This document shows, piece by piece, positions 31,259 to 56,581 of a stretch of DNA of 64,000 nt (the first letter of the stretch is position 1; each line of letters opens with the position of its first letter). Location: assembly GCA_021790195.1 (NCBI GenBank), contig JAJYIF010000002.1, forward strand, positions 62,001 through 126,000, given 5' to 3'. Origin of the DNA: Nitrospirota bacterium (GTDB taxonomy: Bacteria; Nitrospirota; Thermodesulfovibrionia; Thermodesulfovibrionales; UBA9159). The translations under genes and the position numbers were made by a program. The notes beneath the pieces were generated by a model. It saw only the letters and a list, made by a program, of their open reading frames with translations, was not told the DNA's origin and did no database searches.

Positions 31259-31648
31259 TTAAACGCTGTGGATAAGGTAGATCGCCAGGAATATCCCAAC
31301 TGCGATGACGGATATCGCAAGCAGTACGTCCAGTATTAAGGAAGGCTGGTAGGTATCTTTGTCGATCTGTTTTTCGACCTTCTTGTAACGTATGATGGCG
31401 AGCACCCCCATCAATGTGCCGAGCGCCACAAGGAATATGCCTAGGACTGAAGAATAACCATGCGCCGGCAGCGACGCCTCCTTCCCAAGCAGATACTGCA
31501 GCTGTTTGAGAAAGAGCCCGAACTTCTCGACTACGAAACCAAAGGCCATAATGCCTATGCTTGTCCGTATCCAGGACAGAAAGGTGCGCTCATTTGCCAT
31601 ATGGACGCGGCGATTACGGACCTTCTGAGACTTCTCCTCTTCCTTCAT
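31259..31648 (-). CDS. DUF202 (YidH-like) membrane protein
   Basis: 129 residues with the DUF202 signature MANERTFLSWIRTSIGIMAFGF, then membrane segments near SSVLGIFLVALGTLMGVLAII and LLAISVIAVGIFLAIYLI. The function of the family is unknown. It overlaps the PAP2 gene (31645-31648). It is the simple single-unit form of the domain that is multiplied in the proteins at 39850-42739. Confidence 0.85.
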   Translation of the reverse strand: MKEEEKSQKVRNRRVHMANERTFLSWIRTSIGIMAFGFVVEKFGLFLKQLQYLLGKEASLPAHGYSSVLGIFLVALGTLMGVLAIIRYKKVEKQIDKDTYQPSLILDVLLAISVIAVGIFLAIYLIHSV

Positions 31649-32277
31649 CCCGGGTATTCCGCAGTCGCCGCCTGCCCCGCCGTTTTTGAAAGGATCAGCT
31701 TAGCGACCGTGACTCCTACGACCGCACCAGCCAGGACATCAGACGGGAAGTGCGCAAGACAATCTATTCTATATAGCGCTACCGTAAGGGCAAACAGGTA
31801 AAAGGCGGCATTGTATCTAGGATAATATTTCGAGGCGACATAGGCCAGGCAGAACGCCAGAGTGCTGTGGCCCGACGGGAATGAATCATAACCGCTCTTC
31901 AGCGAAGGGCCGATGAAGATGACACTGTCGGTCAGTCTCGGTCTCGCCCTTCCAATGAGGTGTTTGAGGACCTGCACCGAAAGACCTGCCGACAAGAGAC
32001 CGATAAGAAGGGACTTGCCGAACGGGTAAAGAGATGGCTTTTTAAAGCGTCCGATCGCAAAAAGCAGGAACGCCGCTATTATGAGAGTCGCACCGTTGGA
32101 AGCGACATTCATGAAAGGGTTCACAATGTCGAGAAATGAATGGGCGGCCCCTGTCCGATGAAGGTCCCTTGTCCATAGTACAACGATGGTGTCTAAGCGC
32201 AGGAAAAACACCAGTTCCGTGACGGCCAGAGCCATAAGAGCTGAGACCACGATCTTATTGTCTTTCAAGAAGCGCAT
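31645..32277 (-). CDS. PAP2-family membrane phosphatase
   Basis: 210 residues with five or six membrane segments. The three PAP2 phosphatase motifs are present: KHLIGRARPR, FPSGHST and YRIDCLAHFPSDV. It probably dephosphorylates a lipid pyrophosphate such as undecaprenyl pyrophosphate, or a phosphatidyl lipid, at the outer face of the inner membrane. The start overlaps the GT39 gene end by 23 bases, suggesting joint work on lipid-linked sugars. Confidence 0.87.
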   Translation of the reverse strand: MRFLKDNKIVVSALMALAVTELVFFLRLDTIVVLWTRDLHRTGAAHSFLDIVNPFMNVASNGATLIIAAFLLFAIGRFKKPSLYPFGKSLLIGLLSAGLSVQVLKHLIGRARPRLTDSVIFIGPSLKSGYDSFPSGHSTLAFCLAYVASKYYPRYNAAFYLFALTVALYRIDCLAHFPSDVLAGAVVGVTVAKLILSKTAGQAATAEYPG

Positions 32278-33859
32278 ATTTGTCGTCCTTTTGCAATAAA
32301 GTAAAACCCAGTCCCTGTAACATCCCGATCTCCTTCGTTGTTGAAATGATAAGCACTCTCTTCTCCTGAGTCAAGAGGGGTGTCAGATCCCTTATGTTGC
32401 CGGCTCTAACTACCCTGTGGCCGGAATAGAAGACGATACTCGGGTTATTTATCCCGAGGGTGACTATCGCTTCACCGTCATTTAGCCGTTGCTTCGCGTA
32501 TAGACTGTATTGGTAAAGCGTCTTTTGCAGATAATCGCTTGCGAGCGGGGTAGCCTTCACGGAAAGAAGGAGGAGGAAGGCCAGCATTAATACGGACAGG
32601 ACTCCGTAAAACCTCTTTTGACTGGAAAAAGCAAAAAGAGCGACAGCCGTCATGCCGAAGAGGAACAGGGCTGCAGCGACCACCCATCCGGTCTCGAATA
32701 TCCCGATTTGATGGAGGTACTTAATCGAGATCAGGGAGGCTACTCCGGCCAATGCCGTCACGACAGCCATAGAAAGGTTCTCGAACCTGAGCCACTTCTC
32801 TTCTCCGGTCATACCGGAAGAAATAAGAAGAGAAAATGCAGGGACCGAAGGAAGGATATAATTGGGCAGCTTAGTGGTCGCAAGAGAAAAGAAGAGAAAA
32901 ATGAAGGAGGACCATATGAAAGTGAATAAGCCGAGCGGCGAGCGTGAAACCAGGGACGCTCTGCCGGCCGCAGCTTGCAGACCGCGCCTGAATACTCTTC
33001 TGACCCCTCCCGGCAGGAAAAAGATCCACGGCATCAGTCCGACTATCAAGACTGGGAAATAATAATATACAGGGCCGCTGTGGCCCGAGATCACATCCAT
33101 GTATCTTTTGAAGTGGTGTTTGATAATAAACTGCTCGAAAAACTCCCTGCCGTTTATCGCAAATTCTGCTATATACCACGGCGCAGAGATAACCGTAAAC
33201 AGTGCGAGGCCTTTCGGGTCAAAGACCTTCTTTATACCAGAAAGACCCTCCGCAACTGCCAAATAGATAATTGCGATCCCGAAAGGGAAGAGTATCCCTA
33301 TCAGACCTTTTGTGAGAAAGGCGAGTGCCGAGAAAGCGTAGAAGCCGTATATGTATCTATCCGGTTTTCTCAGCGGCGGGTGCGCAGAAGGCCTGCCTTT
33401 CTCGTCAGTCACCGAGATGTAGAAGCAAAATAGGGACAACGTCACGAGCAACGTGAGCGTCATATCAGTGACCGCGGCGTGGGAATAGACCAGAAAATAA
33501 GGAGAGAGGACAAGCGGGATAGTCGCGTAGAAGGCGCTCTGTTCGCCGAGAACGCGTTTAGTGAAAAGGTAAACGGCAAGAGAAAGCAGGAAGGCGGAAA
33601 CAGCGGAGGGGAACCTTGCGCCGAATTCGTTTATTCCGAATATTTTGTAAGAGGCGGCCATCAGCCAGTAAAAGAGGATCGGCTTGTCGTAGCGGTTTTC
33701 ACCGTCGTATGTAGGCGTTATCCAGTTGTTGCTCGCCACCATCTCTTTCGTGGCCTGAGCAAATACCGCCTCGTCCACATCGAAGAGGGTGACAGAGCCC
33801 AGTCTGAAAAAACAGAGGAACAAGGCTACGGCAAGGACGAAAAGGAGGGATTTTGACAT
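32255..33859 (-). CDS. Membrane glycosyltransferase of the GT39/ArnT (PMT_2) type
   Basis: 534 residues with around ten membrane segments. The first periplasmic loop has FDVDEAVFAQATKEM and RYDKPILFYWLMAAS, typical of dolichyl/undecaprenyl-phosphate sugar transferases such as ArnT (the Asp-Glu acts in catalysis). The C-terminal part forms a small periplasmic domain. It transfers a sugar from a polyprenyl-phosphate donor to lipid A, protein or another lipid. The acceptor is not deducible. It overlaps the PAP2 gene. Confidence 0.85.
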   Translation of the reverse strand: MSKSLLFVLAVALFLCFFRLGSVTLFDVDEAVFAQATKEMVASNNWITPTYDGENRYDKPILFYWLMAASYKIFGINEFGARFPSAVSAFLLSLAVYLFTKRVLGEQSAFYATIPLVLSPYFLVYSHAAVTDMTLTLLVTLSLFCFYISVTDEKGRPSAHPPLRKPDRYIYGFYAFSALAFLTKGLIGILFPFGIAIIYLAVAEGLSGIKKVFDPKGLALFTVISAPWYIAEFAINGREFFEQFIIKHHFKRYMDVISGHSGPVYYYFPVLIVGLMPWIFFLPGGVRRVFRRGLQAAAGRASLVSRSPLGLFTFIWSSFIFLFFSLATTKLPNYILPSVPAFSLLISSGMTGEEKWLRFENLSMAVVTALAGVASLISIKYLHQIGIFETGWVVAAALFLFGMTAVALFAFSSQKRFYGVLSVLMLAFLLLLSVKATPLASDYLQKTLYQYSLYAKQRLNDGEAIVTLGINNPSIVFYSGHRVVRAGNIRDLTPLLTQEKRVLIISTTKEIGMLQGLGFTLLQKDDKYALLERQ

Positions 33860-35493: not shown

Positions 35494-38046
35494 TTACGCT
35501 TCGTAGGTGCCGTTAAGGAAATTCCTGGTATACCGCTCCACCGAGGCGTCGTCGTGCATAACCGCGTCCAGCTGCCTCGTGTACGCGATGAGTCTGCCAA
35601 GCGAGTCGAGGAGCTCCTGTATTTCTTCCTGCGGCAGGGCCGCAATCCTAGCGATGATAAGGTCTCCCTTTGTCTTAATCTTGAAACCGTATTCTTTCAG
35701 TACCGCCTCTATGAACTGGACCCGGCGCGTGCGTTTGGAGATATCGGTCGCTCCTCCCATAAAGCGGAAATAGATATGGTTGTTTCTCGTGTTCCCGCTG
35801 CAATAACAATCTATAAGGTTGAAGTGATATCCGAACCTCAGGCTGAGGTTCATGTATTCCCTGGAAACGACGGCCACGTTGTTTTCGATAAAACTGCGGC
35901 TGTCGGAGACGATGTCCGTTGCCCTGAGCATGCTCGTCAGAAAATCATTTGCTCGAAGGGAGACGGCCTCGGACCGCCAGACGCCCGGGTGCATCATGCC
36001 TCCGACAATCGCCTTGAGGGGAAGAGAAGAAATCCGCTCAAAGTCCGCGCTGTCCCGGCCCGGCGAAAGGTCGAGACCTCCCCCGATGTCGATGACCATA
36101 ATGCCGGTCGGTATCGGCAGCCTCAGTTTGATGGCTGCATGTTTCTTCAGGATCGCGCCGCCGTCCCTGGCGCTCTCCACCAGCTCGGCAACGGATTTCT
36201 CGTGGATGAACCTCAATACATCATGCGCTGTTTTGCACGCCTCAGCGGTGAAGTTGTCAAGCAGAGGGTCGACCAGGTTTAAGGGTATGATGTATCGGAG
36301 GATATATCTCTTCTTCCTGAACTCGTAGACGTTTTCCATCCTGCGGGAGTCGGCGCCGGCCTGTTCGAGTAGCTCCCTTGCGATGCCGTCGTAAACGGTC
36401 ATAGTGCCGTCGTCATCAGCATACACAGTGACATCCTGTCCGTGCCTCAAGACCTGTGTCGCCTTGCCCGCATTGACCAGTGTCGGCACCCTGAACTCCC
36501 TGCACAGGGCGGCCATATGGCTCGTGGGCGTTCCGGTGTCGGTGATGATGGCAGAGACGTAGGGCATAATACGTATAAAGTCCGAGGAGTCGTTTCTTGC
36601 CACTAGGATCGCGCCCCTGGGGAAGCTGTTGAGGTCATCCATTTGCCTGAGAATAAAGACCCTCCCGGCGCCGGCCCCTTTCTGCACGACAGTGCCTCCG
36701 ATCTTCGTCAGAACTCTTTCGCTTGTCGCGGCCGGCGCTTTCCCGGCAGCAGCCTCCTCATGTTCGGCAATCTTTAACGGCCTCGACTGGAGGATGAAAA
36801 CTCTTTCGTCACGGTCAATGGCCCACTCGATGTCCTGCGGCTTTCTGAAGTGTCTTTCGATGAGGATTGCCGTCAGCGCCAGCCCGATTGCCTGCTCGTC
36901 AGTCAGACTGAGTTCAGCGCTCAGGTCCCCAGGGGTGTCAATGCGCTTTGTCCCGCCTTCTCCGAGACGGGCGATCATCGATTTCTTGGCCCCGGTCCTC
37001 TTGTTCGCTATCTCCGGAAGCGCCGCTTTCTTGATTACGAAGAGGTCCGCGTCGGTCAGACCTTCCACTACAGATTCACCAAGTCCCCAGGCCGCGTTGA
37101 TCGTCAGCGTATCTTCTTCTCCGCCGGGATCGGCTGAATAAACGACTCCGCTTGAGGCGGCATCGATCATGACCATACAGCCGACCGCCATCTTCATCCT
37201 CTTCAAATCGACCCCTATCTTCCCCATATATGCGACGGATTTGCCCGAAAACATGCTCGCGAGGACGCGTCTGTAAGCGTCTTCAACGGCCCTCTCTTCG
37301 GAGGGCACGTTCAGCTCGGTCCTGAACTGCCCGGCGAAAGAGAAATCGCCGTCCTCCTCTTCGGCGCTGCTCCGTACGGCAAGGAAACAGGTATCTCCGC
37401 ATCTCGACCGTATCTTTTCGAGGGCCTCTCCAAGGGCGTCTCCGATGGGAGGGGGAATCTTCGCATTGCTGATGGATTCCCGCAATTCACCGAGTACGCC
37501 CTCATCTAGGGCTTCTCCGAGGGTCTGGAGTTTCTTGTCTATGCCGTTAAAGCGCAGAAGCTCATCGAAGGCAGAGGTCGTTATTACGAACGCCTCGGGA
37601 ACCTCTATGCCCAAATGGTTCTTCAATTCGGAAAGGTTCGCGTTCTTCCCGCCAACCTCGTGATACTTGTCCCAGGTGATATCTTCATACGGGACGACCA
37701 TCATGCCGGTTTCCCTTGTGTCGTACACGGTGCGTTTGATCTGGTCGTCGATCCTGCGGAGAACGCCGTGAAGCTGCGGATACCCGCCCCTTGTGAGGAG
37801 GTCGAAGCTCTGGAGGCAGTTCTGCAGGGCCACGGAAAGTTCGGAATAGGCCCGCTTCACATATGTAATGTCGAAGAGATAATCTCCCCCGAACTTCTCG
37901 CCCATGTCGGTGATGATCTCGATCGCCCTGTTATTATTGTCGAGGACGTCCCTGAAACGCTGAAACAGGAGCTCGAAAGACAGCCCCTCCTTCTCCCTCT
38001 TCGAAGGGGCGAAAATGCTCTTCAGATGTCCTGTCAATTTGCTCAT
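35494..38046 (-). CDS. PEP synthase-like protein without the PEP-binding barrel
   Basis: About 850 residues. After ~115 helical residues comes an ATP-grasp-like pyruvate/PPDK N-terminal domain (VGGKNANLSEL, AVRSSAEEEDGDFSFAG, EWAIDRDERVFILQSRP) and the phospho-His swivel domain TDTGTPTSHMAALC. The last ~280 residues, however, do not show the TIM-barrel motifs that bind PEP/pyruvate and form an unrecognised domain. It may transfer phosphate to an unknown acceptor. It is the last gene of a kinase-receiver set, 6 to 10 bases after the receiver gene. I chose the ATG at 38046 (AAGGAC site). GTG at 38049 is possible. Confidence 0.8.
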   Translation of the reverse strand: MSKLTGHLKSIFAPSKREKEGLSFELLFQRFRDVLDNNNRAIEIITDMGEKFGGDYLFDITYVKRAYSELSVALQNCLQSFDLLTRGGYPQLHGVLRRIDDQIKRTVYDTRETGMMVVPYEDITWDKYHEVGGKNANLSELKNHLGIEVPEAFVITTSAFDELLRFNGIDKKLQTLGEALDEGVLGELRESISNAKIPPPIGDALGEALEKIRSRCGDTCFLAVRSSAEEEDGDFSFAGQFRTELNVPSEERAVEDAYRRVLASMFSGKSVAYMGKIGVDLKRMKMAVGCMVMIDAASSGVVYSADPGGEEDTLTINAAWGLGESVVEGLTDADLFVIKKAALPEIANKRTGAKKSMIARLGEGGTKRIDTPGDLSAELSLTDEQAIGLALTAILIERHFRKPQDIEWAIDRDERVFILQSRPLKIAEHEEAAAGKAPAATSERVLTKIGGTVVQKGAGAGRVFILRQMDDLNSFPRGAILVARNDSSDFIRIMPYVSAIITDTGTPTSHMAALCREFRVPTLVNAGKATQVLRHGQDVTVYADDDGTMTVYDGIARELLEQAGADSRRMENVYEFRKKRYILRYIIPLNLVDPLLDNFTAEACKTAHDVLRFIHEKSVAELVESARDGGAILKKHAAIKLRLPIPTGIMVIDIGGGLDLSPGRDSADFERISSLPLKAIVGGMMHPGVWRSEAVSLRANDFLTSMLRATDIVSDSRSFIENNVAVVSREYMNLSLRFGYHFNLIDCYCSGNTRNNHIYFRFMGGATDISKRTRRVQFIEAVLKEYGFKIKTKGDLIIARIAALPQEEIQELLDSLGRLIAYTRQLDAVMHDDASVERYTRNFLNGTYEA

Positions 38047-38055
38047 CACGTCCTT

Positions 38056-38424
38056 TTATGCCTTGCTCAGTGCGCGGTTTATCGATTCCTTGAGCTCCTT
38101 GATCTTGACGGGCTTCGGGAAGAAGTCATGCACCTCGGCCCTTAACGCGGCTATGGCAGCGTCGAGATTGGCAAAGGCCGTTATCATAATGACTTTGGTG
38201 TCGGGATAGAGCTTTTTGACGGTCCTTAGGACTTCCATACCGTCAATTCCCTTCATCTTCAGGTCTGTCACAACTACGTCGAACTTTTCCTCCTTCAATC
38301 TTGACAGGGCCGGCTCGGCGTTCAGAAAAGTCTCGACGGAGTAGCCCTCCTGTTCCAGCGACAGCTTCGCCATGTCACCCACAATCTTTTCATCGTCAAT
38401 AACCATGATCCTGTAAGAGCTCAT
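38056..38424 (-). CDS. Single-domain response regulator
   Basis: 122 residues, only a CheY-like receiver: VIDDEKIVGD acidic pocket, VVVTDLKMKG (phospho-Asp), MITAFA and FPKPVK (conserved Lys). No output domain, so it must act through protein contacts, perhaps on the PEP-synthase-like protein downstream. It overlaps the kinase gene by four bases, and GGAGGAGAAGAAGG precedes the ATG. Confidence 0.9.
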   Translation of the reverse strand: MSSYRIMVIDDEKIVGDMAKLSLEQEGYSVETFLNAEPALSRLKEEKFDVVVTDLKMKGIDGMEVLRTVKKLYPDTKVIMITAFANLDAAIAALRAEVHDFFPKPVKIKELKESINRALSKA

Positions 38425-39833
38425 CCTTCTTCTCCTCCTCCTGTCTCTTTATAAATGGGCAATTCAATCGTAAAAGTGGTCCCGACCCCCGGTTTGCTGT
38501 CCACCCTGATATCTCCGCCATGGTTCTTTATTATCCCATAACTCACCGACAAGCCGAGCCCCGTGCCGCCCTCGCCCTTGGTGCTGAAGAAAGGGTCGAA
38601 TATGTGAGGGAGGAATTCAGGGGATATGCCCTTGCCCGAATCCATGACAGTGACCTTCACCGAGCTGACGTCCCTGCCGGGCCTAGAAGAGATAAACAGC
38701 TTGCCTCCGGAAGACATGGCCTGAACGGCGTTGGTGATCAGGTTCACGAGGACCTGCTGTATCTGGTGCTCGTCGACAAAGACGTGCGGCAAGGCATCTG
38801 CCAGGTTCAGTCTCGTATCGATGTTCGATATGTCAAGCATGTTCTGAACGAGTGTGATGGTCCTCTTGATGACCGAGTTGATGTCCGCCTCCTTGAGGTT
38901 CGCCTCTTTGGGTTTGGAAAAATCGAGGAGATTTCGTATGATTTCCTTTATCCGCTCAGTCTCTCCCTCGATCTTGTTCATGAATTCGATCCTGTCTTCC
39001 CTGCTCAGCTTATCATACACGTCCGCGTATGTCTGGGCGATCATCGAGATATTGTTAAGAGGATTCGTGAGTTCGTGGGCGACCCCTGCCGTCAGGATCC
39101 CCAGGGACGCGAGTTTCTTGGACTGAAGTATCTGCTCTTCCCGATGGCTGAGCTCCTCAGACATGCGGTTTATGGCCTTCATGAGCGAACCGAACTCGTC
39201 TCCGGATCTCACAACCTCCATCTTTCTGAAATTCCCCTCGGATATGGACTGCGCAAGGCTTTCGATCTTGCGGAGGGACTTCAGGATCCGCTGGGAGATA
39301 AAATGGCTGACCACAATGGCGGAAAAGAGGATCGCCCAGAAGGAATAGAACAGCACTTTCTTTGAACTCGTGATAATATCGTTCACGCGTTTTCTCTCGA
39401 GGACCGTGATTGTTTCCGAAAACTCCTTCAGTTTCTTTCCTTCGGTCCTGAGCGCGGTCTGCATCTGCTCGGTCCTCCCAGCCCTCCTCAGGGCCTCGAC
39501 CGCCTCCGAATATTTTGCGAGATAGGTCTTGAGCAACTTGAGATTTTCCTCCCCTATGGCCCTGGATATGTCAGGGCTCACGGCGTCTATGGACTCCATG
39601 GTCTTGTCGATCTTGTCCTTGATATCGAAGAGAGCGGATTCGTCGCTGTAAAGGAAATAGTTCTTTTCGGAAAGCCTCATTTCAAGGAAAGACGCGTTCA
39701 GGTCATCGGCTATCTCGACGAACCTCAGTTTTGTCAGCATAAGGTTAAGGTTCTGAATAGCGAAGAAACCTATGAGTACAATGAGAGCCACGTTAAACGC
39801 GCTCGAAAGAAAGATTTTTTGCCCCACCCTCAT
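38421..39833 (-). CDS. Membrane sensor histidine kinase
   Basis: 470 residues. Membrane segments at about 8-28 and 162-182 enclose a helical periplasmic sensor with the motif MRLSEKNYFLYSDE. Then HAMP (about 183-235), HisKA with GVAHELTNPLNNIS, and HATPase (NLITNAVQAM, DSGKGI, GGTGLGLS). It is followed by an overlapping receiver gene, so this is a cognate pair. The sensor motif closely resembles that of the kinase at 49559-51124, suggesting paralogues sensing similar signals. Confidence 0.92.
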   Translation of the reverse strand: MRVGQKIFLSSAFNVALIVLIGFFAIQNLNLMLTKLRFVEIADDLNASFLEMRLSEKNYFLYSDESALFDIKDKIDKTMESIDAVSPDISRAIGEENLKLLKTYLAKYSEAVEALRRAGRTEQMQTALRTEGKKLKEFSETITVLERKRVNDIITSSKKVLFYSFWAILFSAIVVSHFISQRILKSLRKIESLAQSISEGNFRKMEVVRSGDEFGSLMKAINRMSEELSHREEQILQSKKLASLGILTAGVAHELTNPLNNISMIAQTYADVYDKLSREDRIEFMNKIEGETERIKEIIRNLLDFSKPKEANLKEADINSVIKRTITLVQNMLDISNIDTRLNLADALPHVFVDEHQIQQVLVNLITNAVQAMSSGGKLFISSRPGRDVSSVKVTVMDSGKGISPEFLPHIFDPFFSTKGEGGTGLGLSVSYGIIKNHGGDIRVDSKPGVGTTFTIELPIYKETGGGEEG

Positions 39834-39849
39834 GCTTTATCCTATCATT

Positions 39850-41106
39850 TTATTGCGGGACCGGACATCTTGGGATCTCGGACTGCTCTTTTCTTACTGG
39901 CAGGTACCATAAGACGCCGTCGACGGTCATTAACAGCCCTGCGAGGATAAGGAGAGAGTCTACCATAGTCAGAATACTCAGTCCGAAATAGTGCATGAGT
40001 CCGAACCCAAGACTCAAAAAGGATATGCCGGAACGGATAAAGGCAAGCCCGGTCCTTGCGCGCGAATAAATCGTGCGATAACAAGCGGCGACGGTGCGCT
40101 GTCCCGCGAGAACGTTCCTCTCGCGGGCCAGGTGAGTGCGTTCCCTGCTTGCAGGCGAGGGGTAGAGAATAGTGCAGTGGTCGGCAAGGAAGTCGCCGAG
40201 CCGGCCGAGCATTGTCTTTTTCGTCTCGGAGTTCATGCCCGCCCCGTCGATGAAATGATAATTCTCAAGAAACTGCATGGTCGCAGCCGTCACCTCGACA
40301 AGGGTGTGATGTCCCGGGGGGGTCATGCGGGACTTTCTGACCTTCAGGTATAAGGACAGCCCGTAAATGCCGAGCGAAAAACCGCCCACCATTACAAGCC
40401 AGGGAAGAAGAAAGGCCTTGCGTGCGCGCATAAGGGTGTCCGCTATCGCAATCATGCCGAGCCCCCACCGGAAAAAAGCGAGACCAGTCCTCCCCTGGGC
40501 GAGGTCGTTCCTGTAGCAGGCGAGTCTTGTCCTCCACTGGGCCATTGTATTGCGCCAGAAGGCAAGGCCTGTCCTCTCCGTGCCTATGATAAATCCGGGT
40601 CGCGCATGCAGGAAATCCTGAATGAACCATTGTATGTCGTCTCCGAGCGCCACCCTGAATTCGTAGTCTCTTGCCGTGAAGATCGCCTCCACCTCTTCCC
40701 TTACGGCAGGATCGTCGGGATTGTTTGCCGCAATTATTATCTTATCGCCCTCTTTCATCACAGGGAACCATTGACTCATGAAGAGCCTGTCGCTGTTGAG
40801 ACCTGTGAGGAGCTCCGGCGGGACCGGTATCCTCTCATCATATTCCACTGCCGGGCAGCCGTAATGTCCTGAAAGAGCCTCAAGGAGAGACTGCCGGGGG
40901 ATTTTGTATTCCCTCAGGAGCAATTTTTCTGTATCGATCCCCCTGGCGACGGAGGCATCCGACGCCTCGTGAAGCTCCTCCGCGCTGATGATTCCGTGTT
41001 TTACCAGAAGGAGAAACCGCCCTGACCGTACCTCCCACGCCTCGGTCTTAGGAGCAATCCGGCCCGTCAAAACATCAATCATATCAGACATGTCAGAGTT
41101 CTTCAT
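39850..41106 (-). CDS. GspE/MshE N-terminal domain fused to two DUF202-like units
   Basis: About 418 residues. The first ~165 residues resemble the MshEN domain (AEELHEASDA, SLLEALSGHYGCPAVEYDE, FPVMKEGDKIIIAANNPDD) but lack the RLG c-di-GMP signature and any ATPase domain. Two DUF202-like units follow. Each is a helix with an arginine exactly every seven residues (six in each unit, with RTGLAF near the end), then two membrane segments and a short (Y)LxVRK tail. The function is unknown. I chose the ATG at 41106, overlapping the upstream paralogue's end by 14 bases. An ATG at 41148 is less likely. Confidence 0.75.
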   Translation of the reverse strand: MKNSDMSDMIDVLTGRIAPKTEAWEVRSGRFLLLVKHGIISAEELHEASDASVARGIDTEKLLLREYKIPRQSLLEALSGHYGCPAVEYDERIPVPPELLTGLNSDRLFMSQWFPVMKEGDKIIIAANNPDDPAVREEVEAIFTARDYEFRVALGDDIQWFIQDFLHARPGFIIGTERTGLAFWRNTMAQWRTRLACYRNDLAQGRTGLAFFRWGLGMIAIADTLMRARKAFLLPWLVMVGGFSLGIYGLSLYLKVRKSRMTPPGHHTLVEVTAATMQFLENYHFIDGAGMNSETKKTMLGRLGDFLADHCTILYPSPASRERTHLARERNVLAGQRTVAACYRTIYSRARTGLAFIRSGISFLSLGFGLMHYFGLSILTMVDSLLILAGLLMTVDGVLWYLPVRKEQSEIPRCPVPQ

Positions 41107-42739
41107 TGCTGAATATCGCCTTTCCCCAGTCACAAGTGGGCTTTCCATAATCCGGCACTACGATTTCCATATCTCCAAAACAATAAGGGAACTGCCGTCT
41201 TATCTTTTCCGCGGGGATGTGCCAGTAGAGGCCATCCGCAATAAGAACGAGTCCGAACACTAGCAGGACAAAATTGAATATGGCCCACCCCGTGTTCGCG
41301 AGACCGAAATAAACGAGGAGGCCGGCCCCGACGGCGGAGATGCTCATCCCGGTCCTGATGAAGGCCATACCGGTGCGTGAACGCGCCATTATTGTGCGAA
41401 GCCTTGCCATGACATTCCTCCTGTCGGCGAGCACCGTCCTTTCAAGTGCCAAACCGGTTGTCGCCCATATTCCGGGTGAGCACGTCTTTCTGAGGAACAG
41501 GGCAAAAGATACTTCCTCCCAGTTCGGTCTTTTGTGGCATGGAGGGAAGACAAGGTCCCAGATCGTCTCGTTGTTGCCCATTCTTATGACGGATTCGAAG
41601 CCGTCCTTCCCGGCGCGCCGTCCCGGCAGATACCAGTAGAAGCCTTCCGTCAGCATCAGCACACCCACTAGGATGAGCGAGACGTAGAAGATTGTCCAGG
41701 GACCCAGGTGGAACTGCCTGAGGAGCGCAATGCCGAAGCCTGCAAAGGCGATCCCGGTCCTTGTGAAGGCCAACCCCGTTCGGGCGCTGGCCATGATGGT
41801 CCTGTAACAAGCGAGGATAGTCCTCTCTTCGGCCAGGTCCGTCCTGTCGCTCGCGAGGAAGCGGCGTCTCATGACAGGCGAGAGACCGGCCCACCCGGCG
41901 CGCAGATTGTCGGCGTCCGCAACCGGCTCCGTTCTCGAAAAGGCAGGATCGCCTTCAGGGTTCGAGGCCTGAAGCACTGTTGTTCCCCAGGTCGGCTCTG
42001 TCGGGGAGCAGACCATCCTCTTTTTGCCGACTTTCCTTGCCGGCAGGTACCAGATTATGCCGTCTGCAGTCATGAGCGCGCCCGCCGCAAAAAGCAGGCC
42101 CTCGATTATGGTCAGATACCCAAGGCCGAAGATCTTAAATAGGACAAGGGCTATCGCCATAAAGGACACGCCGGTGCGGATAAAGGCAAGACCGGTCCTG
42201 CCCTTTGCGAGAGATGTCCTGTAGCTCGCCAGCAGGGACCGCCTCTCGGCAAGATATGTCCTGACCTTTGCAAGAGGGGTCCTGGCGCCCGAAAGAGGAA
42301 AATTGGGGTTTACGTCATAACTGTTTTCTATGACCCTGATGAGATCCTGGGGAAGGGCGACGATGAAGCTTATCCGCCCGATCCCGAGGGTCTCTTTCAC
42401 GTCCTCGATGACAGCGGCCTTATCCGGCTCATAGGCGATTACTTCCGCGCTTTCTTTCGTAATCGAAATGGGGAACCAGAGCGCCCGCTTCTGTCTTTCC
42501 ATGTCGAAGCGCCTTGCGACAAAATAGGAGGCGGCGACATTCTCATCATATTCTATAAAGGGAAGTCCGTAATTCTCGGAAAGGCAAAAGAGTATTTCAT
42601 GCTTCGGCACGCCTTTCTCGATAAGCAGCTCCTCGGGGTAGCGGCGGTAATCTTCCGCTTCTTTTATCGCTCCCCTGAGTTCCTCTTCGGTCAGGAGCTT
42701 CCTTCTAACGAGCCTTTCAAATTTCTTTTCCTCTATCAT
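41093..42739 (-). CDS. GspE/MshE N-terminal domain fused to three DUF202-like units
   Basis: 548 residues. MshEN-like domain at 1-145 (LLTEEELRGAIKEAE, LSENYGLPFIEYDEN, WFPISITKESAEVIAYEPD, DLIRVIENSYD), then DUF202-like units at about 152-236, 291-375 and 425-513. Arginines recur every seven residues: 153 to 188, 292 to 327 and 434 to 462. Each unit has two membrane helices and ends in a WYLPxRK or WHIPAEK tail. Linkers carry repeated P-x-W motifs. It is a paralogue of the next gene. No enzyme domain is present. I know of no named family with this architecture. Confidence 0.78.
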   Translation of the reverse strand: MIEEKKFERLVRRKLLTEEELRGAIKEAEDYRRYPEELLIEKGVPKHEILFCLSENYGLPFIEYDENVAASYFVARRFDMERQKRALWFPISITKESAEVIAYEPDKAAVIEDVKETLGIGRISFIVALPQDLIRVIENSYDVNPNFPLSGARTPLAKVRTYLAERRSLLASYRTSLAKGRTGLAFIRTGVSFMAIALVLFKIFGLGYLTIIEGLLFAAGALMTADGIIWYLPARKVGKKRMVCSPTEPTWGTTVLQASNPEGDPAFSRTEPVADADNLRAGWAGLSPVMRRRFLASDRTDLAEERTILACYRTIMASARTGLAFTRTGIAFAGFGIALLRQFHLGPWTIFYVSLILVGVLMLTEGFYWYLPGRRAGKDGFESVIRMGNNETIWDLVFPPCHKRPNWEEVSFALFLRKTCSPGIWATTGLALERTVLADRRNVMARLRTIMARSRTGMAFIRTGMSISAVGAGLLVYFGLANTGWAIFNFVLLVFGLVLIADGLYWHIPAEKIRRQFPYCFGDMEIVVPDYGKPTCDWGKAIFSNEEL

Positions 42740-42834: not shown

Positions 42835-43254
42835 TCACGCCCCTAACACAAGTACGGGGCAGGGGGCATTGTTGATGACCTTTTCAACAACCCCTCCGCC
42901 CAAAAGCTTACCGAGCCAGCCCCTCTTGCGCGCGCCCATAATGATGAGGTCGCACCTCTCTTCTTCCGCCACCTCGATGATCTTCCTGGGCACGTCTCCC
43001 TCTTCAAGCCTCGTCTTGATCAGAGCGCCCTCACTGTCCGCTTGCTTCTTGAACTCCGAGATTGCCTTGGCTCCCTCGCTTTCCAGCACGTCCTCGATCT
43101 TCTGCACTCCAACAAGGTCGAGGTCACCCTCATAAGGAGGAAGGACCTTCACGACCGTGACCCAGCATCTTTCGTCGCTTGCAAGCTTCAGCCCCTGATC
43201 GAGCACTTCTCTGGAGCCGTTTACCGCTATGAGTACTTTTCTGTAGCCTTTCAT
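42835..43254 (-). CDS. Universal stress protein
   Basis: 139 residues, one Usp domain: YRKVLIAVNGSREVLDQGLKLA at the start and IIMGARKRGWLGKLLGGGVVEKV as the nucleotide loop (GxRxxG...GGVV), so ATP binding is likely though the second serine is missing. It lies five bases after the tandem Usp gene. Ninety-five bases then separate it from the MshEN-DUF202 genes. Confidence 0.88.
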   Translation of the reverse strand: MKGYRKVLIAVNGSREVLDQGLKLASDERCWVTVVKVLPPYEGDLDLVGVQKIEDVLESEGAKAISEFKKQADSEGALIKTRLEEGDVPRKIIEVAEEERCDLIIMGARKRGWLGKLLGGGVVEKVINNAPCPVLVLGA

Positions 43255-43258
43255 CTTC

Positions 43259-44170
43259 CTATCTCACTACGAGGACCGGACAGGACGCGTTCATTATTAC
43301 CCGCTCCGCCGTGCTCCCCATTATCGCCTTGTTCACGCCACGCCACCCGTAGCTTCCCATTATGATCAGGTCGTTACCGGCTTTACCGCAGGTCTCGACG
43401 ACCTTATCTCCTGCATGTCCCTCCTCTATAATTGTCTTCACCTGAATACTGTAATCGGCCGCGACGGCCTTAGCACCCTCTATGATCCTCTCTGCTTCCT
43501 GCCTCAGGCTTTTCCTTATCGACGAGGTCATCATGAAATCTATCATTTCTTCATAGCGCGGTATGGCATAAAGCACCGTGATACCCGAGCCGTCGAGCTT
43601 CGCCAGCTCGCAGGCCCGCCTGAGGGCCTTTTTGCTGAACTCCGAGCCGTCAAAGGGGACCAGGATCGACCTGTAGGTGCCGGCGCACTGAGTGCACTGC
43701 TTCTTGACCACGAGAACGTCGATGGATGAACTGACGATGACCTGAGAGGTAACGCTTCCCATAAGCAGTCTGTTGATCCCCCGCCTACCGTATGTCCCCA
43801 GCACTATGAGGTCCGCCTTCTTCTCCTCGGCGATGTCGACAATGACCTTGGGAGGGTCGCCTTCGCACAGAAAAGACTGCGCCTCTATGCCGAACTCCGA
43901 GGTTATCATTTCCTTTGTCTGGTAGCAGACTTTTTCCCCGAGTTTCAGGCGTTTCTCCAGCTGCTCAGGAGCGATCCCGAATTCCTCTTCATCGAAATAG
44001 ACTGCGTGGACGAGAACGATCTTGCCGCCGTGTTTCTTTATCCAGTTCGAGGCCTCAGTAAGCGCGGCCTTGCTCGGAATGGAGTCGTCGAATCCCACCA
44101 GGATCGTGCTGTATAGAGTGCTCACTGCTGCTTCTTTATTCAAGATGTTTTTCTCCTTGTCAAGAATCAT
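43259..44170 (-). CDS. Tandem universal stress protein
   Basis: Two Usp domains in one chain of about 300 residues. The first (STILVGFDDSIPSKAAL to VLGTYGRRGINRLLMGSVT) and the second (SILVPFDGSEFSKKAL to IMGSYGWRGVNKAIMGSTA) both have G-x-x-G(R/x)-G-type ATP loops. Tandem Usps are thought to sense ATP level. The start is uncertain: ATG at 44170 has a weak site, TTG at 44143 has AAGGAG nine bases before it, and TTG at 44191 opens the frame. It belongs to the sigma-54-led stress gene run. Confidence 0.87.
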   Translation of the reverse strand: MILDKEKNILNKEAAVSTLYSTILVGFDDSIPSKAALTEASNWIKKHGGKIVLVHAVYFDEEEFGIAPEQLEKRLKLGEKVCYQTKEMITSEFGIEAQSFLCEGDPPKVIVDIAEEKKADLIVLGTYGRRGINRLLMGSVTSQVIVSSSIDVLVVKKQCTQCAGTYRSILVPFDGSEFSKKALRRACELAKLDGSGITVLYAIPRYEEMIDFMMTSSIRKSLRQEAERIIEGAKAVAADYSIQVKTIIEEGHAGDKVVETCGKAGNDLIIMGSYGWRGVNKAIMGSTAERVIMNASCPVLVVR

Positions 44171-44219
44171 TTCTTTATATGGGCCATGCAAGGGGCCATG
44201 TAACCCCCCCGACGATCAA

Positions 44220-45002
44220 CTAATGCGCCCCCCCTCCTTTCCTGAATATCAGTCCTACTCCAAAGCCTGCTGCAAGGGCCGCGAGGATGGATATCGTTCC
44301 GTAAGCCGCGGCATTGTTCTTTGCCATGCCTGCAAGGGATTTCACGACCCCGACCTGCTCTACGATGACATTTGAGCTTGCCGTCTCGACCACTTTCCTG
44401 TCCCGGACGGCGTAAACCGTCACGGTGTAATTGCCGGGAGCGGCCTGATAAGGCCAGTCCATCTTGATGTAATAATTCTGCTTACCGTCCTTGTCGGTAA
44501 GAGAGACCCCTGCCGGGGAGACATTATAGAGCTTTCTGGACTCCTTGAATTTTATAAATTGCTCGAACCATTTTTCCTTCTCTTCAGCGGGAGCCGGCGT
44601 GTCGATCTTCACATGTCTCGACAGCGCCTGGTAGCCGATCACGTATTTGTCGGTCTCGTCCCGGTCCAGAAGGTCGGCTATGTTCTTCGTGCCCGCCAGG
44701 AGATAAAGCTTGGGCGTATCCTCAAAATTCAGAGATCCTACGTTCATCCACAAGACCCCTCCGACCTTACCCTTTTGCCGCAGGGACTCGTGGCCGTCGG
44801 ACGCGCTTATCTTGACGATAACGTCCGTGCCGGGATCCGATACCCCGCTGACGCTTACCGTGCTGCCGTGATAGAAGAAGTCTATCGTGATATGATCATG
44901 ATTGGCCCTGATTGTCAACTCGGCGGAGGCCTTGTTTACGAGCAAAAATATTCCCAGTAATCCTATCAGAAAGACGCTTGTTATTGTTTTGACCTGTTTC
45001 AT
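44220..45002 (-). CDS. TIGR02186-like membrane protein (Alph_Pro_TM)
   Basis: 260 residues. Signal segment (VFLIGLLGIFLLVNKASA), a beta-rich periplasmic domain (ITIDFFYHGSTVSVSGVSDPG, DVIVKISASDG) and a single C-terminal membrane segment near AAYGTISILAALAAGFGVGLIF. This matches the Alph_Pro_TM/TIGR02186 family, typically encoded next to TauE/SafE permeases as here (family knowledge). The start overlaps the permease stop (TGATG) and has AGGAGGAGG upstream. It probably assists the permease. The exact role is unknown. Confidence 0.82.
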   Translation of the reverse strand: MKQVKTITSVFLIGLLGIFLLVNKASAELTIRANHDHITIDFFYHGSTVSVSGVSDPGTDVIVKISASDGHESLRQKGKVGGVLWMNVGSLNFEDTPKLYLLAGTKNIADLLDRDETDKYVIGYQALSRHVKIDTPAPAEEKEKWFEQFIKFKESRKLYNVSPAGVSLTDKDGKQNYYIKMDWPYQAAPGNYTVTVYAVRDRKVVETASSNVIVEQVGVVKSLAGMAKNNAAAYGTISILAALAAGFGVGLIFRKGGGAH

Positions 45003-45919
45003 CAGTGTCCTCCTCCTTGTCCCAACAGAAGCGAAGGCGTTAAGGTGAGCTCAAGCACTATCTTTGCAGTAACTATAAGTACAATAACCGCCAGTATGAT
45101 CTTGAGCTGATCGCCTTTAAGCTTGCGTCCGAAGACCGTGCCGACCTGCGCACCGATCGTTGAACCGAGGAGCAATAGCACAGCAAGGATAAAGTCCACG
45201 TTGTGGTTTGTGTAAGCCTGAAGAAAAGTGACCTCGATACAGTTGAAGAGTATCTGAAAAAGACTCGTTCCCACTACGACATGCATCGGCATCCTCAGGA
45301 TATAGACCATGACCGGCACCATCAGGAATCCGCCTCCTACGCCCATTATCGCCGCCAGGACCCCGACGAAGCCCCCGAAGACAAGCGGCACAAGGGCGGA
45401 ATGCGTAACGCCGGATTTTTCGAAATGAGTCTGCATAGGGAGTGACTTCAGGAATTTGGCAACATTAGATTCCTTCTGCGGCTTCACTTCATCGGTCTTT
45501 TTCTTGTTCATGCTGGCGAGGCTTTCGAAGAACATATAAATGCCGACAATGCCGAGCATCAAAACATAAGTCATCTTTATTACGAAGTCGGCATTACCGG
45601 TCGCCCTGAGGATCTTGATCGCCTGGACGCCGAAGAGTCCGCCTATGAATCCGCCGATGAGCAGATAAAGCCCCATCTTGAAATCCACATTGCCGACCTT
45701 CCAGTGCGCATAAGTTCCGGAGGTCGAGGCCGCCACTATCTGGTTAGAATCCGTTGCGGCCGCCACTGTTGAGGGGATGCCGCACATAATCAGAAGCGGG
45801 GTCATCAGAAAACCGCCTCCGACACCGAAGAGACCCGAGAGCAGGCCGACAGCAAGGCCTAGCCCCACAGGGATAAGGATGTTGATACTCGTTAAGGCTA
45901 CGGGCAGATACAGATACAT
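45002..45919 (-). CDS. TauE/SafE-family (TSUP) permease
   Basis: 305 residues, eight or so membrane helices in two homologous halves, each with the GxxGGGFLMTP-like signature: FGVGGGFLMTPLLIMCGIP and MGVGGGFLMVPVMVYI. Family members export sulfite, sulfonates or related anions across the inner membrane. A cytoplasmic loop rich in lysine joins the halves. GGAGGG precedes the ATG. Paired with the TIGR02186-like protein. The substrate is probably a sulfur oxyanion (inference). Confidence 0.87.
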   Translation of the reverse strand: MYLYLPVALTSINILIPVGLGLAVGLLSGLFGVGGGFLMTPLLIMCGIPSTVAAATDSNQIVAASTSGTYAHWKVGNVDFKMGLYLLIGGFIGGLFGVQAIKILRATGNADFVIKMTYVLMLGIVGIYMFFESLASMNKKKTDEVKPQKESNVAKFLKSLPMQTHFEKSGVTHSALVPLVFGGFVGVLAAIMGVGGGFLMVPVMVYILRMPMHVVVGTSLFQILFNCIEVTFLQAYTNHNVDFILAVLLLLGSTIGAQVGTVFGRKLKGDQLKIILAVIVLIVTAKIVLELTLTPSLLLGQGGGH

Positions 45920-45943
45920 TAACTTCCCTCCTTCTTTTTTTTG

Positions 45944-46435
45944 TCAAGCAACCCTGGCGTTCTTGGCCATGGTTACTACCGGCCTCGACGCCGTCTTGAC
46001 GAGTTTGCTCAGCTCCTTTGAAGTTATGCGGCCGTCATCGGTTATGCTCGGGCTTAGAAGGATCATGTCTATGCCGGTTCTCTGTCTAAGCAGATTTTTT
46101 ACCGCAGATAACACGTCCGTCGCTGCCGCACTCACACCCACCGTTACGCCCAACTTCTTGCATCGTTCCACGAGCTGAGACATTTTCTTGTCGTAATCCT
46201 CGTTCTTCGTCTCGTAATACTCTTTGATCAGTTCCCGTGCGGTCTTGTTGTCGTCGGCCTCAGCAAAGGTAACTATAGTCATCATATCTTCGAATTTCTC
46301 CATAACTTTTCTCTTGTAGACCATTAATATCTCTATTCCATCGTTCATCATCTTCGCAAGATCGACGGCGTAGGAGAGTCCGTCTTCAAAGTTCTCGTCA
46401 TGGTAGGTGACGAACAAAAGCTGTCTGTTCCTCAT
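45944..46435 (-). CDS. Universal stress protein-like protein
   Basis: 163 residues with a Usp-like alpha/beta pattern: RQLLFVTYHDENFEDGLSYAVDLAKMMNDGIEIL-type opening and a final strand RPVVTMAKN, but without the G-x-G nucleotide loop, so probably not ATP-binding. A charged helical insertion (ETKNEDYDKKMSQLVERCKK) lies in the middle. It is the first gene after a near-consensus sigma-54 promoter and begins the stress-gene run that extends down to at least 42835. Confidence 0.65.
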   Translation of the reverse strand: MRNRQLLFVTYHDENFEDGLSYAVDLAKMMNDGIEILMVYKRKVMEKFEDMMTIVTFAEADDNKTARELIKEYYETKNEDYDKKMSQLVERCKKLGVTVGVSAAATDVLSAVKNLLRQRTGIDMILLSPSITDDGRITSKELSKLVKTASRPVVTMAKNARVA

Positions 46436-51197: not shown

Positions 51198-52562
51198 TTA
51201 TTTTATCCGGTATTTCTGAAGTCTGTGCCTGAAGGACCTGAATGAAAGTTCGAGCAGCTTCGCTGCGTCGGTCTTCACGCCGTTTGCTATCTTGAGCGCT
51301 TCAAGGAGATACTTTCTCTCGATATTTTCGACTATCGCATCGAGATTTACGCCGTCTTTTCCCATCTCCGGAAGGAGCTTGCTCTCGGGTCGTAAATCGC
51401 CGATTTCCAGCGGGATATCGGAAGCTGTTATCTCCTCTTTATCGGTCATGAGAAAGACGCGCTCCACAAGATTTTCGAGTTCCCGTATATTTCCCCTCCA
51501 GGAATAAGTCATCAGCAGTCTCAGGGCGTCGGGAGACAGCCGTCTGCTTGAGGCCGAAAACTTCTTCATAAAGTGCTCTATGAGCAGGGGGATGTCTTCT
51601 CTTCTCTCGCGAAGAGGCGGTATGTGGAGGGGTATAACGTTCAGCCTGTAATAGAGGTCCTCACGGAACCTGCCTGCCGAGATCTCTTCATTAAGGTTCT
51701 TGTTGGTCGCCGAGACGATCCTCACATCCACCGTTATGTCGTTGGTGCCGCCGACCCGCCTGAAGGTACCGTTTTCGAGCACCCTCAGGAGCTTTGCCTG
51801 AAGGTTGAACGACATCTCTCCTATCTCGTCGAGGAAGAGGGTGCCTCCATCGGCTATCTCGAAGAGGCCCTGTTTGTTGTAAACTGCCCCAGTGAACGCA
51901 CCTTTCATGTGACCGAAGATCTCACTTTCAAGCAGACCTTCCGGGAAGGTCGCACAGTTTATCGCTACAAGGTTTTTTTCTTTCCTCTGGCTGAGATTAT
52001 GGATCGCCGTTGCAACGAATTCTTTTCCCGTTCCGCTTTCTCCGGTGATAAGGACGTTCGAGCTGCTGCCTGCGATCTTCGGAAGAAGTCTAAGCAATTC
52101 CTGCATCTTCGCGCTCTTGTAAAAAATGTTGCCGAGCTCGTAAGTCGTCCGGATCTTATCTCTGAGAATGGAAACCTCTCCCCTCAGTTTATGTTTCTCG
52201 AGTGCGTTCTTGACCACGAGGCGGATCTCGTCGATCTTGAAAGGCTTGTGTATGTAATCGTAAGCGCCGAGCTTCATAGCCTCGACCGCAGATTCCGTAG
52301 TACCGAAGGCCGTTATTACGATAACCAGCGTTTCGGGCGAAGTCTCAACCGCCTTCTTCAGGATCTCTATGCCGTTTACCCCGGGCATCCTTATGTCGGT
52401 AATGACAAGATCGAAAATGTCGCTGTTGAGGCAGCTCAGACCTTCGGCGCCGTCCTGCGCGACGTGGACTTCGTATCCTTCACCGTCGAGGAGGATCTTC
52501 AGGATCTCCCGCATGTTTTTTTCGTCTTCAATGACCAGAATCTTATTTCTTGGTTTGTCCAT
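51198..52562 (-). CDS. pilR: PilR-like sigma-54-dependent response regulator
   Basis: About 454 residues: receiver (VIEDEKNMREIL, LVITDIRMPGVN), AAA+ (GESGTGKEFVA, EIFGHMKGAFTGA, GTLFLDEIGEM) and a C-terminal Fis-type helix-turn-helix (KTDAAKLLELSFRSFRHRL). Gene order directly after pilS and the pilus motor genes makes PilR the best name. It usually activates pilA from a sigma-54 promoter, but no pilA is in this window. I chose the ATG at 52562. A TTG at 52574 is possible. Confidence 0.9.
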   Translation of the reverse strand: MDKPRNKILVIEDEKNMREILKILLDGEGYEVHVAQDGAEGLSCLNSDIFDLVITDIRMPGVNGIEILKKAVETSPETLVIVITAFGTTESAVEAMKLGAYDYIHKPFKIDEIRLVVKNALEKHKLRGEVSILRDKIRTTYELGNIFYKSAKMQELLRLLPKIAGSSSNVLITGESGTGKEFVATAIHNLSQRKEKNLVAINCATFPEGLLESEIFGHMKGAFTGAVYNKQGLFEIADGGTLFLDEIGEMSFNLQAKLLRVLENGTFRRVGGTNDITVDVRIVSATNKNLNEEISAGRFREDLYYRLNVIPLHIPPLRERREDIPLLIEHFMKKFSASSRRLSPDALRLLMTYSWRGNIRELENLVERVFLMTDKEEITASDIPLEIGDLRPESKLLPEMGKDGVNLDAIVENIERKYLLEALKIANGVKTDAAKLLELSFRSFRHRLQKYRIK

Positions 52563-52587
52563 CGGCCTGTTCAAATTTGCGAAGCTT

Positions 52588-54231
52588 CTAAGGATTGCCC
52601 ACCTTGGATAAACCGGCCCAGGCCGCCCTGTCTTCCGGAGACGAACGCGGCGGAAAGACAGGGATTATTACATCGAAGGTTGTACCTTTGCCCGGCCGGC
52701 TGTTCACCCTTATTCTTCCGCCATGTTCCTCGACTATCCTGTAAGCTATGGAAAGACCGAGGCCCGTGCCCTTATCTTTAGTGGTATAAAACGGATAGAA
52801 AATCTCATTCAGGTTTTCGCGCGGAATCCCGACTCCGGAATCCTGAAAGGAAATTATAACATGATCATTCAGCCGTCTTGTTCCTATGGCCAGCTGACCC
52901 TGCTGGTGTAACGATTCTATGGCGTTCATGCCCAGATTCAAGAAAACCTGCCGGAGTTTCTGAGGATCCGCGGTTATTTCATTGCGGCCTTCGAAAGTCT
53001 TGCTAATGATTATACCGTCTCTATCAACAAGGGCGTTTTTAAGGAGGTCGATAGTCTCCTCGAGGACAGTGTGGAGGTCGAACTTGAAGAACTCCGGCTG
53101 CCTCGGCCTCGAATAGGTAAGAAAATCGGTTATGATCTTGTTGAGACGGTCCATTTCGCTTATGGCAATGTTCATCAGTTTATCTCCATGGTCCTTTGTC
53201 AGAGCGCCTTCCTTGAGGATCTCTATGGAGCCTTTTAGCGAGGCAAGAGGGTTTCTTATCTCATGGGCCATGTTTGCGGAAAGCTCACCTATGACTGCAA
53301 GGGTCTCCTTGTGCTTGAGGTCCTCTTCCATCTTCTTGAGCTCCGTAATGTCCTGGAAAATACAGATATATCCGTTCTTGTTGCCGGAAGCGTCCGTCGA
53401 TGCGGACAAGGAAAGGCCGATCATGCGGAGGGCGCCGTTGACCGCGATCTTGCCTTCTGCCCTTTCTGTTTTATCGGGACTCGTTATGAAAGGGAAAATG
53501 TCCGTTATGCGCCTTCCTGTTGCATTTGTCCGGTCGATGCCTGTTATATTCTCAGCGGCTTTATTAAAAATAAGGATTGCGCCGGAGAGGTCCATGGTAA
53601 AGAGTCCGCTCGGTAGACTCTCTATCAATTCCTTGTTGAAAAAGGCGAGGTCCTTGAGGTCCGAATCTTTTTCTTCGAGCCTCTTTGATGCCCTCTCCAG
53701 CCGGGAATAAAGGTATCCCATGAGGTAAGCTGTGAGGTAGAGGGCGGTGATGTGGGAGAAGATGTTATAGAGGAAGTCTTTTTGCTTTACCAGATAATCA
53801 TACGTAATAGGGATCACTCCGTAGAACTGAAGATCTATCAAAGAACCATAGAGCAGACTGCACAGGGTGGCCGTAATATAGCCGGCCCTCTTGTTCATGG
53901 TTATGACGGAGGCGATTACAGAAATAATCATTACGAAAGAAAACCAGCTCTCTATGCCGCCCGTCAGGAATATGAGCAATATCGTAGCTGCCGCGTCTAT
54001 TGTCAACTGGGCGTAGGCAAAGGCTGCGAGATTGCTTATGCGATAGAGCATGGCCGCATAAATGAAGGAAACGGCGTAGAGGGACACGATGAGATAGGGT
54101 ATTCCGTGGTGGTAGGGGAATTTGTAGTATCCTATCTTGAAGATGAGAAAGGTCCCGAGAAGGAAAGTAACAAAAAAGGCCCTGAATATTATCAGGGCCT
54201 TTAGTCTCTTAAGGAGAGCGTCGTTGGGCAT
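52588..54231 (-). CDS. pilS: PilS-like sensor histidine kinase
   Basis: 547 residues. About six membrane helices in the first 180 residues, the PilS layout, then a PAS domain (LIESLPSGLFTMDLSG, boundary DITELKKME), HisKA (NMAHEIRNPLASLKGS) and HATPase (NLGMNAIESL, DSGVGIP, GTGLGLS). In known systems PilS senses the pilin in the membrane and controls PilR. It is 13 to 26 bases upstream of pilR and directly after pilC. Confidence 0.9.
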   Translation of the reverse strand: MPNDALLKRLKALIIFRAFFVTFLLGTFLIFKIGYYKFPYHHGIPYLIVSLYAVSFIYAAMLYRISNLAAFAYAQLTIDAAATILLIFLTGGIESWFSFVMIISVIASVITMNKRAGYITATLCSLLYGSLIDLQFYGVIPITYDYLVKQKDFLYNIFSHITALYLTAYLMGYLYSRLERASKRLEEKDSDLKDLAFFNKELIESLPSGLFTMDLSGAILIFNKAAENITGIDRTNATGRRITDIFPFITSPDKTERAEGKIAVNGALRMIGLSLSASTDASGNKNGYICIFQDITELKKMEEDLKHKETLAVIGELSANMAHEIRNPLASLKGSIEILKEGALTKDHGDKLMNIAISEMDRLNKIITDFLTYSRPRQPEFFKFDLHTVLEETIDLLKNALVDRDGIIISKTFEGRNEITADPQKLRQVFLNLGMNAIESLHQQGQLAIGTRRLNDHVIISFQDSGVGIPRENLNEIFYPFYTTKDKGTGLGLSIAYRIVEEHGGRIRVNSRPGKGTTFDVIIPVFPPRSSPEDRAAWAGLSKVGNP

Positions 54232-54234
54232 AAA

Positions 54235-55446: not shown

Positions 55447-55448
55447 CT

Positions 55449-56537: not shown

Positions 56538-56581
56538 CGTCCACTCCCTTAGAATTCAAAATTGGAAGTCCAGAATTTCTC

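Follow-up and report, generated by a model that had tools for sequence, protein, structure and literature searches.

Adjacent MshEN-DUF202 proteins with arginine ladders in Nitrospirota and other bacteria: a conserved 3+2 pair and a possible VTC-like assembly

What could two neighbouring membrane proteins do if each carries a pilus-ATPase-type head and a row of membrane units with arginine at every seventh residue? This question is raised by a gene pair, here called MD3 and MD2, in a 64,000-nucleotide stretch of Nitrospirota DNA (the window). To our knowledge, DUF202, the domain of the membrane units, is a common bacterial domain to which Pfam assigns no function. The first-pass annotation, made from the letters alone, had described two adjacent genes joining an MshEN-like domain to three or two DUF202 units, and the open reading frames and Pfam matches confirm this (Table 1). 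MshEN matched MD3 at 1.8e-6 (28.3 bits) and MD2 at 1.5e-11 (44.5 bits), the gathering score being 23.1. DUF202 (PF02656) matched MD3 in three stretches (9.8e-15, 55.2 bits; gathering score 23.4), and MD2 of the window scored 22.5 bits, slightly below the gathering score. The domain was matched in all 46 MD3 homologues and in 40 of 42 MD2 homologues (E<=1e-3). The probable start of MD2 is the ATG at 41106, which gives 418 aa and overlaps the MD3 stop by 14 nt. The annotation had allowed that the combination might already be a described family. The literature searched held no report of MshEN joined to DUF202, and MD3 and MD2 are a real and widespread protein pair, apparently undescribed, that combines known domains in a new architecture.

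Table 1. Features of the MD3/MD2 locus, in window coordinates.
Feature	Position	Strand	Description
MD3	41093..42739	-	548 aa; MshEN-like domain and three DUF202 units; ORF/translation, Pfam
MD3 MshEN-like head	42314..42739	-	Residues 1-142; degenerate c-di-GMP motif; AlphaFold2 and Foldseek
Unit A (MD3)	42026..42283	-	Ladder R153/160/167/174/181/188; helix 153-204 (ladder+TM1), helix 209-238 (TM2)
Unit B (MD3)	41573..41878	-	Ladder R292/299/306/313/320/327; helices 288-342, 349-389; Pfam DUF202 at 313-369
Unit C (MD3)	41192..41476	-	Ladder R434/441/448/455/462, conserved Thr as rung 1; helices 422-478, 483-516
MD2	39850..41148	-	432 aa ORF; MshEN-like domain and two DUF202 units; Pfam
MD2 MshEN-like head	40606..41043	-	Residues 36-181; motif lost; Foldseek best match 5htl MshE
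Unit D (MD2)	40327..40581	-	Ladder R192/199/206/213/220/227; helices 190-242, 247-274
Unit E (MD2)	39883..40146	-	Ladder R337/344/351/358/365/372; helices 335-388, 394-422
Histidine kinase	38421..39833	-	HAMP, HisKA, HATPase; directly downstream of MD2; Pfam
Single-domain response regulator	38056..38424	-	Pfam Response_reg 5.5e-29
Dikinase-like	35494..38049	-	PPDK_N and PEP-utilizers mobile domain; C-terminal ~300 aa without Pfam match
Two universal-stress-protein genes (single, tandem)	42835..44191	-	Upstream; Pfam Usp 2.6e-25, 1e-60
TIGR02186-like (Alph_Pro_TM), TauE/SafE permease, 163-aa small conserved protein	44220..46435	-	Upstream

The N-terminal regions do fold like MshEN in the predicted structures, as had been proposed. 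Foldseek matched the heads of both proteins to 5htl and 8pdk with probability 1.00 and a TM to target of 0.61-0.72, and also to 7lko. The MD3 head matched PilF GSPIIB and MshE; the best match of the MD2 head was MshE (5htl; TM to target 0.71). The heads share their fold and Pfam family (PF05157) with MshE, PilB/PilF and GspE, but they lack both c-di-GMP half-sites and are not followed by an AAA+ ATPase domain; no T2SSE match was found by Pfam in MD3 or MD2. An MshEN domain that binds c-di-GMP has two RLG...Q half-sites (PMC5013675), and we tested the motif as two copies of RLGxx..G....L...L..Q. The residues G11, Q32, G40 and Q61 are replaced in nearly all of the 46 MD3 and 42 MD2 homologues, and the NCBIfam model of the motif (NF053729), which has a cut-off of 38 bits, scores the two proteins at 13.6 and 14.7. 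The suspected loss of the c-di-GMP residues is thus a property of the whole family. A role of MD3/MD2 as a c-di-GMP receptor was rejected on this ground; from their sequences, the heads are not expected to bind c-di-GMP and are probably docking or sensing domains. Since MshEN has been reported in fusion with glycosyltransferases and other domains (PMC5013675), a head of this type on another module has precedent. The partner in MD3 and MD2 differs from that in the MshEN-membrane glycosyltransferases in being a tandem DUF202 array and no enzyme, and MshEN is apparently used here without c-di-GMP binding on a membrane protein that is not an ATPase.

Three further observations concern such heads. 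A type IV pilus-type cluster of the window (51198-58393, reverse strand), with PilB-, PilT- and PilC-like proteins, a kinase and a sigma-54-type regulator, encodes a PilB whose head, unlike those of MD3 and MD2, keeps most of the c-di-GMP motif residues. Proteins of ~755-785 aa in loci L022-L028 and L058-L060 have an MshEN-like head with 27-40% identity to the MD3/MD2 heads. In a subgroup of MD3 proteins of ~510 aa (L139, L147, L162 and similar), the first ~40 residues of the head are missing.

The membrane units have the heptad motif of DUF202, R..LA..RT.LA..RT, which in these YidH-like small membrane proteins runs into the first membrane helix. DUF202 proteins had been said to be single-unit as a rule, and this is borne out among 118 Nitrospirota genomes, in which the matches were short single-unit ORFs, MD3/MD2 or, in one case, part of a 696-aa frame. 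An ordinary member has one unit with three rungs, whereas MD3 and MD2 carry an MshEN-like head and two or three units, each with five to six rungs, an architecture that is unusual within the family. Arginine occupies rungs 4-6 (RRR) in 12 of the 13 ordinary proteins examined and rungs 1-3 in 0 of 13. Because ordinary members are without arginine at rungs 1-3, the ladder is the standard DUF202 motif lengthened N-terminally by two to three rungs. The window also contains an ordinary single-unit DUF202 gene at 31259-31648, in a reverse-strand row with PAP2 phosphatase-like and glycosyltransferase-like genes; at locus L085 the same trio comes after a dikinase gene.

Arginine recurs at i+7 in all five units, with 6, 6, 5, 6 and 6 rungs in units A to E. 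Even one run of six appeared in only 0.03% (MD3) and 0.015% (MD2) of shuffled sequences, with 20,000 shuffles per protein; because a single run is so rare, the five runs cannot be put down to chance. The ladder arginines are mostly invariant among 29 Nitrospirota pairs, and other phyla show the 6/6/5 plus 6/6 pattern again with minor variation (MD3 6/6/5 or close; MD2 6/6 in 65 of 72 proteins and 5/5 in five). The neighbouring positions conserved with them are Thr(+1), Leu/Met(+3) and Ala(+4). The earlier description of RTxLAxx repeated five to six times therefore stands as to the arginine spacing in every unit; it does not stand as to the RT, which is at times RN or RS, and three of the rungs belong to the ordinary DUF202 motif.

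The ladder stretches together hold 41 Arg/Lys and 11 Asp/Glu, a positive excess that calls for an anionic partner. In a purely structural bundle, the arginines would pair with acids of neighbouring helices or of partner proteins. Four of the five units do have a conserved acid near the cytoplasmic end of TM2 (MD3 D226, E365 and D502; MD2 D410), but with so few acids there is no matching acidic ladder, and no heptad position of the ladder is regularly acidic. We consider such self-neutralization improbable.

The geometry of the ladder was examined in AlphaFold2 models of the single chains, computed from alignments of 46 (MD3) and 42 (MD2) sequences. The mean pLDDT was 83.6 for MD3 and 79.7 for MD2, with pTM values of 0.79 and 0.64. 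In each modeled unit the ladder and TM1 form one unbroken helix of ~52-57 residues, which is followed by a second helix. AlphaFold2 and hydropathy agree on two membrane helices in each unit; in unit D the first of them is weakly hydrophobic. The hydrophobic moment, calculated without arginine, points to the arginine side (-27 to -44 degrees), which places the arginines on the apolar Leu/Ala face. The first-pass annotation had pictured an amphipathic helix with one arginine face ahead of the membrane helices. Both this moment and the continuity of the helix into TM1 speak against an amphipathic helix at the membrane surface, and the modeled geometry would suit a helix-helix interface or a lumen better. 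The same features bear on the idea that lipid phosphates of the inner leaflet are bound along the rows of arginine, so that the proteins would organize or sense membrane lipid composition. The large positive excess beside membrane helices is in keeping with lipid binding, and the ordinary DUF202 gene of the window adjoins genes for a PAP2 phosphatase-like and a glycosyltransferase-like protein (31259-33859). However, the arginines lie on the apolar face and not at a polar boundary, the models (calculated without a membrane) show a continuous helix and no kinked surface helix, and a straight helix would put rungs 1-3 tens of angstroms away from the bilayer. We therefore judge binding of anionic lipids to be quite unlikely as the function of the ladder.

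The only structurally known DUF202 members that we found are the subunits of the yeast VTC complex. Vtc1 (query sequence identical to PDB 8i6v chain A) matches PF02656 at 1.9e-17 (63.9 bits) with K24 at profile position 1, and unit B of MD3 matches from R313 at this same position. Rung 4 of the ladder therefore corresponds to K24 of Vtc1 and rung 5 to R31. VTC is a 3:1:1 pentamer in which five TM1 helices form the channel (Guan et al., PMC9911596). In Vtc1, K24 and R31 line the channel, as do their equivalents in Vtc3 and Vtc4, and mutation of these residues abolishes the vacuolar polyphosphate store (PMC9911596). A profile of the 13 ordinary DUF202 proteins scored the MD units at 8-33 bits and Vtc1/Vtc4 at 17 bits, with 7.8 bits for the best shuffled decoy. 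When one ordinary DUF202 protein was included in the alignment, all four matches of a PDB search were Vtc1. A profile of the MD units alone gave no Vtc1 match in the PDB, and hhalign of the MD units with Vtc1 returned a probability of 1.6%, though in register. Direct proof of kinship with Vtc1 from the MD units alone accordingly failed, and the direct link is weak; the kinship runs by way of DUF202. With the whole chains of MD3 and MD2, VTC was not among the best 50 Foldseek matches of each.

The likeness to VTC consists of the DUF202-type domain, which is found in Vtc1 and in the membrane domains of Vtc3 and Vtc4, and of the basic residues at rungs 4 and 5. VTC has five membrane domains, and MD3 and MD2 supply 3 + 2 = 5 as a count of units. 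The MD units differ from VTC in being fused 3+2, in having three additional arginine rungs and in occurring in organisms that mostly lack PPK1. They also have two transmembrane helices, in comparison to three in a VTC subunit. No SPX or VTC polymerase domain was found in MD3, MD2 or the neighbours scanned.

The unit count is nearly constant. Scanning GTDB contigs yielded 116 relatives, and 80 of them entered the locus analysis. Beyond the genome of the window, at least 80 genomes carry the pair, from Nitrospirota, Desulfobacterota/"Deltaproteobacteria" and a few Actinomycetota MAGs. The record titles name Nitrospirae, Deltaproteobacteria, the Desulfobacter, Desulfobulb and Syntrophobacter groups, Actinomycetes and Thermoleophilia. 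An architecture search across genomes had been proposed in the first-pass annotation, whose reader had missed this spread, the 3+2 pairing and the three standard rungs. MD2 comes directly after MD3 in 76 of the 77 loci that leave room for it; the exception (L124) has a fragment-like match only. The 76 apparent overlaps show abutting frames and not exact starts, as MD2 starts were chosen near the expected position. Nearly all homologous pairs have 3+2 = 5 units. In a tree of 98 units these group by position A-E and not by organism, with the minimum of five label changes; support is 99 for B, 99 for C, 97 for E and 78 for D, and the A units do not form a single clean clade. On this tree, the units diverged before the family spread and have kept their positions since, which fits fixed places in an asymmetric ring. 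At one locus (L103:9995-14647) two successive MD3 copies precede MD2, the first without the middle ladder and the second intact.

From the unit count, the kinship and the helix geometry, we infer that MD3 and MD2 may form a 1:1, VTC-like pseudo-pentamer, with the arginines facing a central conduit or receptor for an anionic ligand; we give this reading a probability of roughly 40%. The two proteins, as fixed partners, would assemble on the plan of the membrane part of yeast VTC, with five ladder+TM1 helices around a central axis and the five TM2 helices packed outside them. All 29 ladder arginines would point toward this axis in stacked rings; rungs 4-6 would lie at the membrane, and rungs 1-3 would prolong the arginine tube by ~30 Å into the cytoplasm. 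The MshEN-like heads would act as docking or sensing parts. The constant 3+2 units and the near-fixed arginine spacing offer a concrete way to test the role of DUF202 in bacteria, and the family could show whether an anion channel of the VTC type is older than the eukaryotic one or runs parallel to it.

The lumen of such a pseudo-pentamer would bind or pass a phosphate-rich or otherwise polyanionic ligand. Polyphosphate, which had been named as a candidate, was reasonable to propose, given that yeast Vtc1 belongs to DUF202. In the form made by polyphosphate kinases, it finds no support in the genomes that carry the pair. Neither PPK1 nor PPK2 was found in the genome of the window or in any of 26 sampled Nitrospirota carriers, and of 44 other carriers only 6 have PPK1 (38 do not), several of these genomes being incomplete MAGs. 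Within Nitrospirota, Fisher tests of carriers against PPK gave p = 0.004 (PPK1) and 2e-5 (PPK2), a contrast confounded by descent, for PPK1 because it is confined there to a few families. We rejected polyphosphate made by PPK as the obligatory ligand, and it is an unlikely ligand; the lumen would probably hold something other than the PPK1/PPK2 product. As most carriers have no PPK1, a channel of the VTC kind in these organisms would require a different anionic substrate. The fuller proposal, of a bacterial VTC-like conduit in which a 3+2 pseudo-pentamer with a 29-arginine tube through the membrane and ~30 Å into the cytoplasm carries or senses a non-PPK anionic ligand in organisms mostly lacking PPK1, is tentative and somewhat doubtful as a whole.

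The order of genes around the pair in the window is small protein, TauE, TIGR02186, Usp-Usp, Usp, MD3, MD2, histidine kinase, response regulator and dikinase-like. Among the 80 loci, a histidine kinase follows MD2 directly in 55 of the 71 with room, and a response regulator follows that kinase in 49 of 51 with room. The MD3/MD2 pair is the core of the locus and the two-component system is a frequent partner. In the proposed pseudo-pentamer, the state of the complex would often be passed to the adjacent kinase and response regulator. A different use of this arrangement is that MD3 and MD2 are accessory sensor subunits of the kinase, the arginine helices forming a rigid stalk through which the state of the membrane or binding at the heads is relayed, with no passage of a ligand. 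The kinase and the regulator usually next to it speak for such a scaffold, and the presence of Usp, TauE and dikinase genes hints at a regulon concerned with stress or redox. However, the pair persists in the 16 of 71 loci that have no kinase behind MD2, and a scaffold by itself leaves the invariance of the arginines and the fixed 3+2 count unexplained. We regard it as unlikely.

The other neighbours vary more between loci. Usp genes are linked to the pair in many Nitrospirota loci. In loci of at least 19 kb, TauE was present in 17 of 45 and a dikinase homologue in only 30 of 45, on which count the dikinase was rejected as an obligatory partner. The dikinase-like protein of the window has ATP-binding and mobile phosphohistidine domains ahead of its unmatched C-terminal part. 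Anti-phage defence and plasmid carriage were also considered and dropped, as there was no PADLOC match for the former and no match for the latter. In Deltaproteobacteria-type records (e.g. L138), several dikinase-like paralogues lie around the MD loci.
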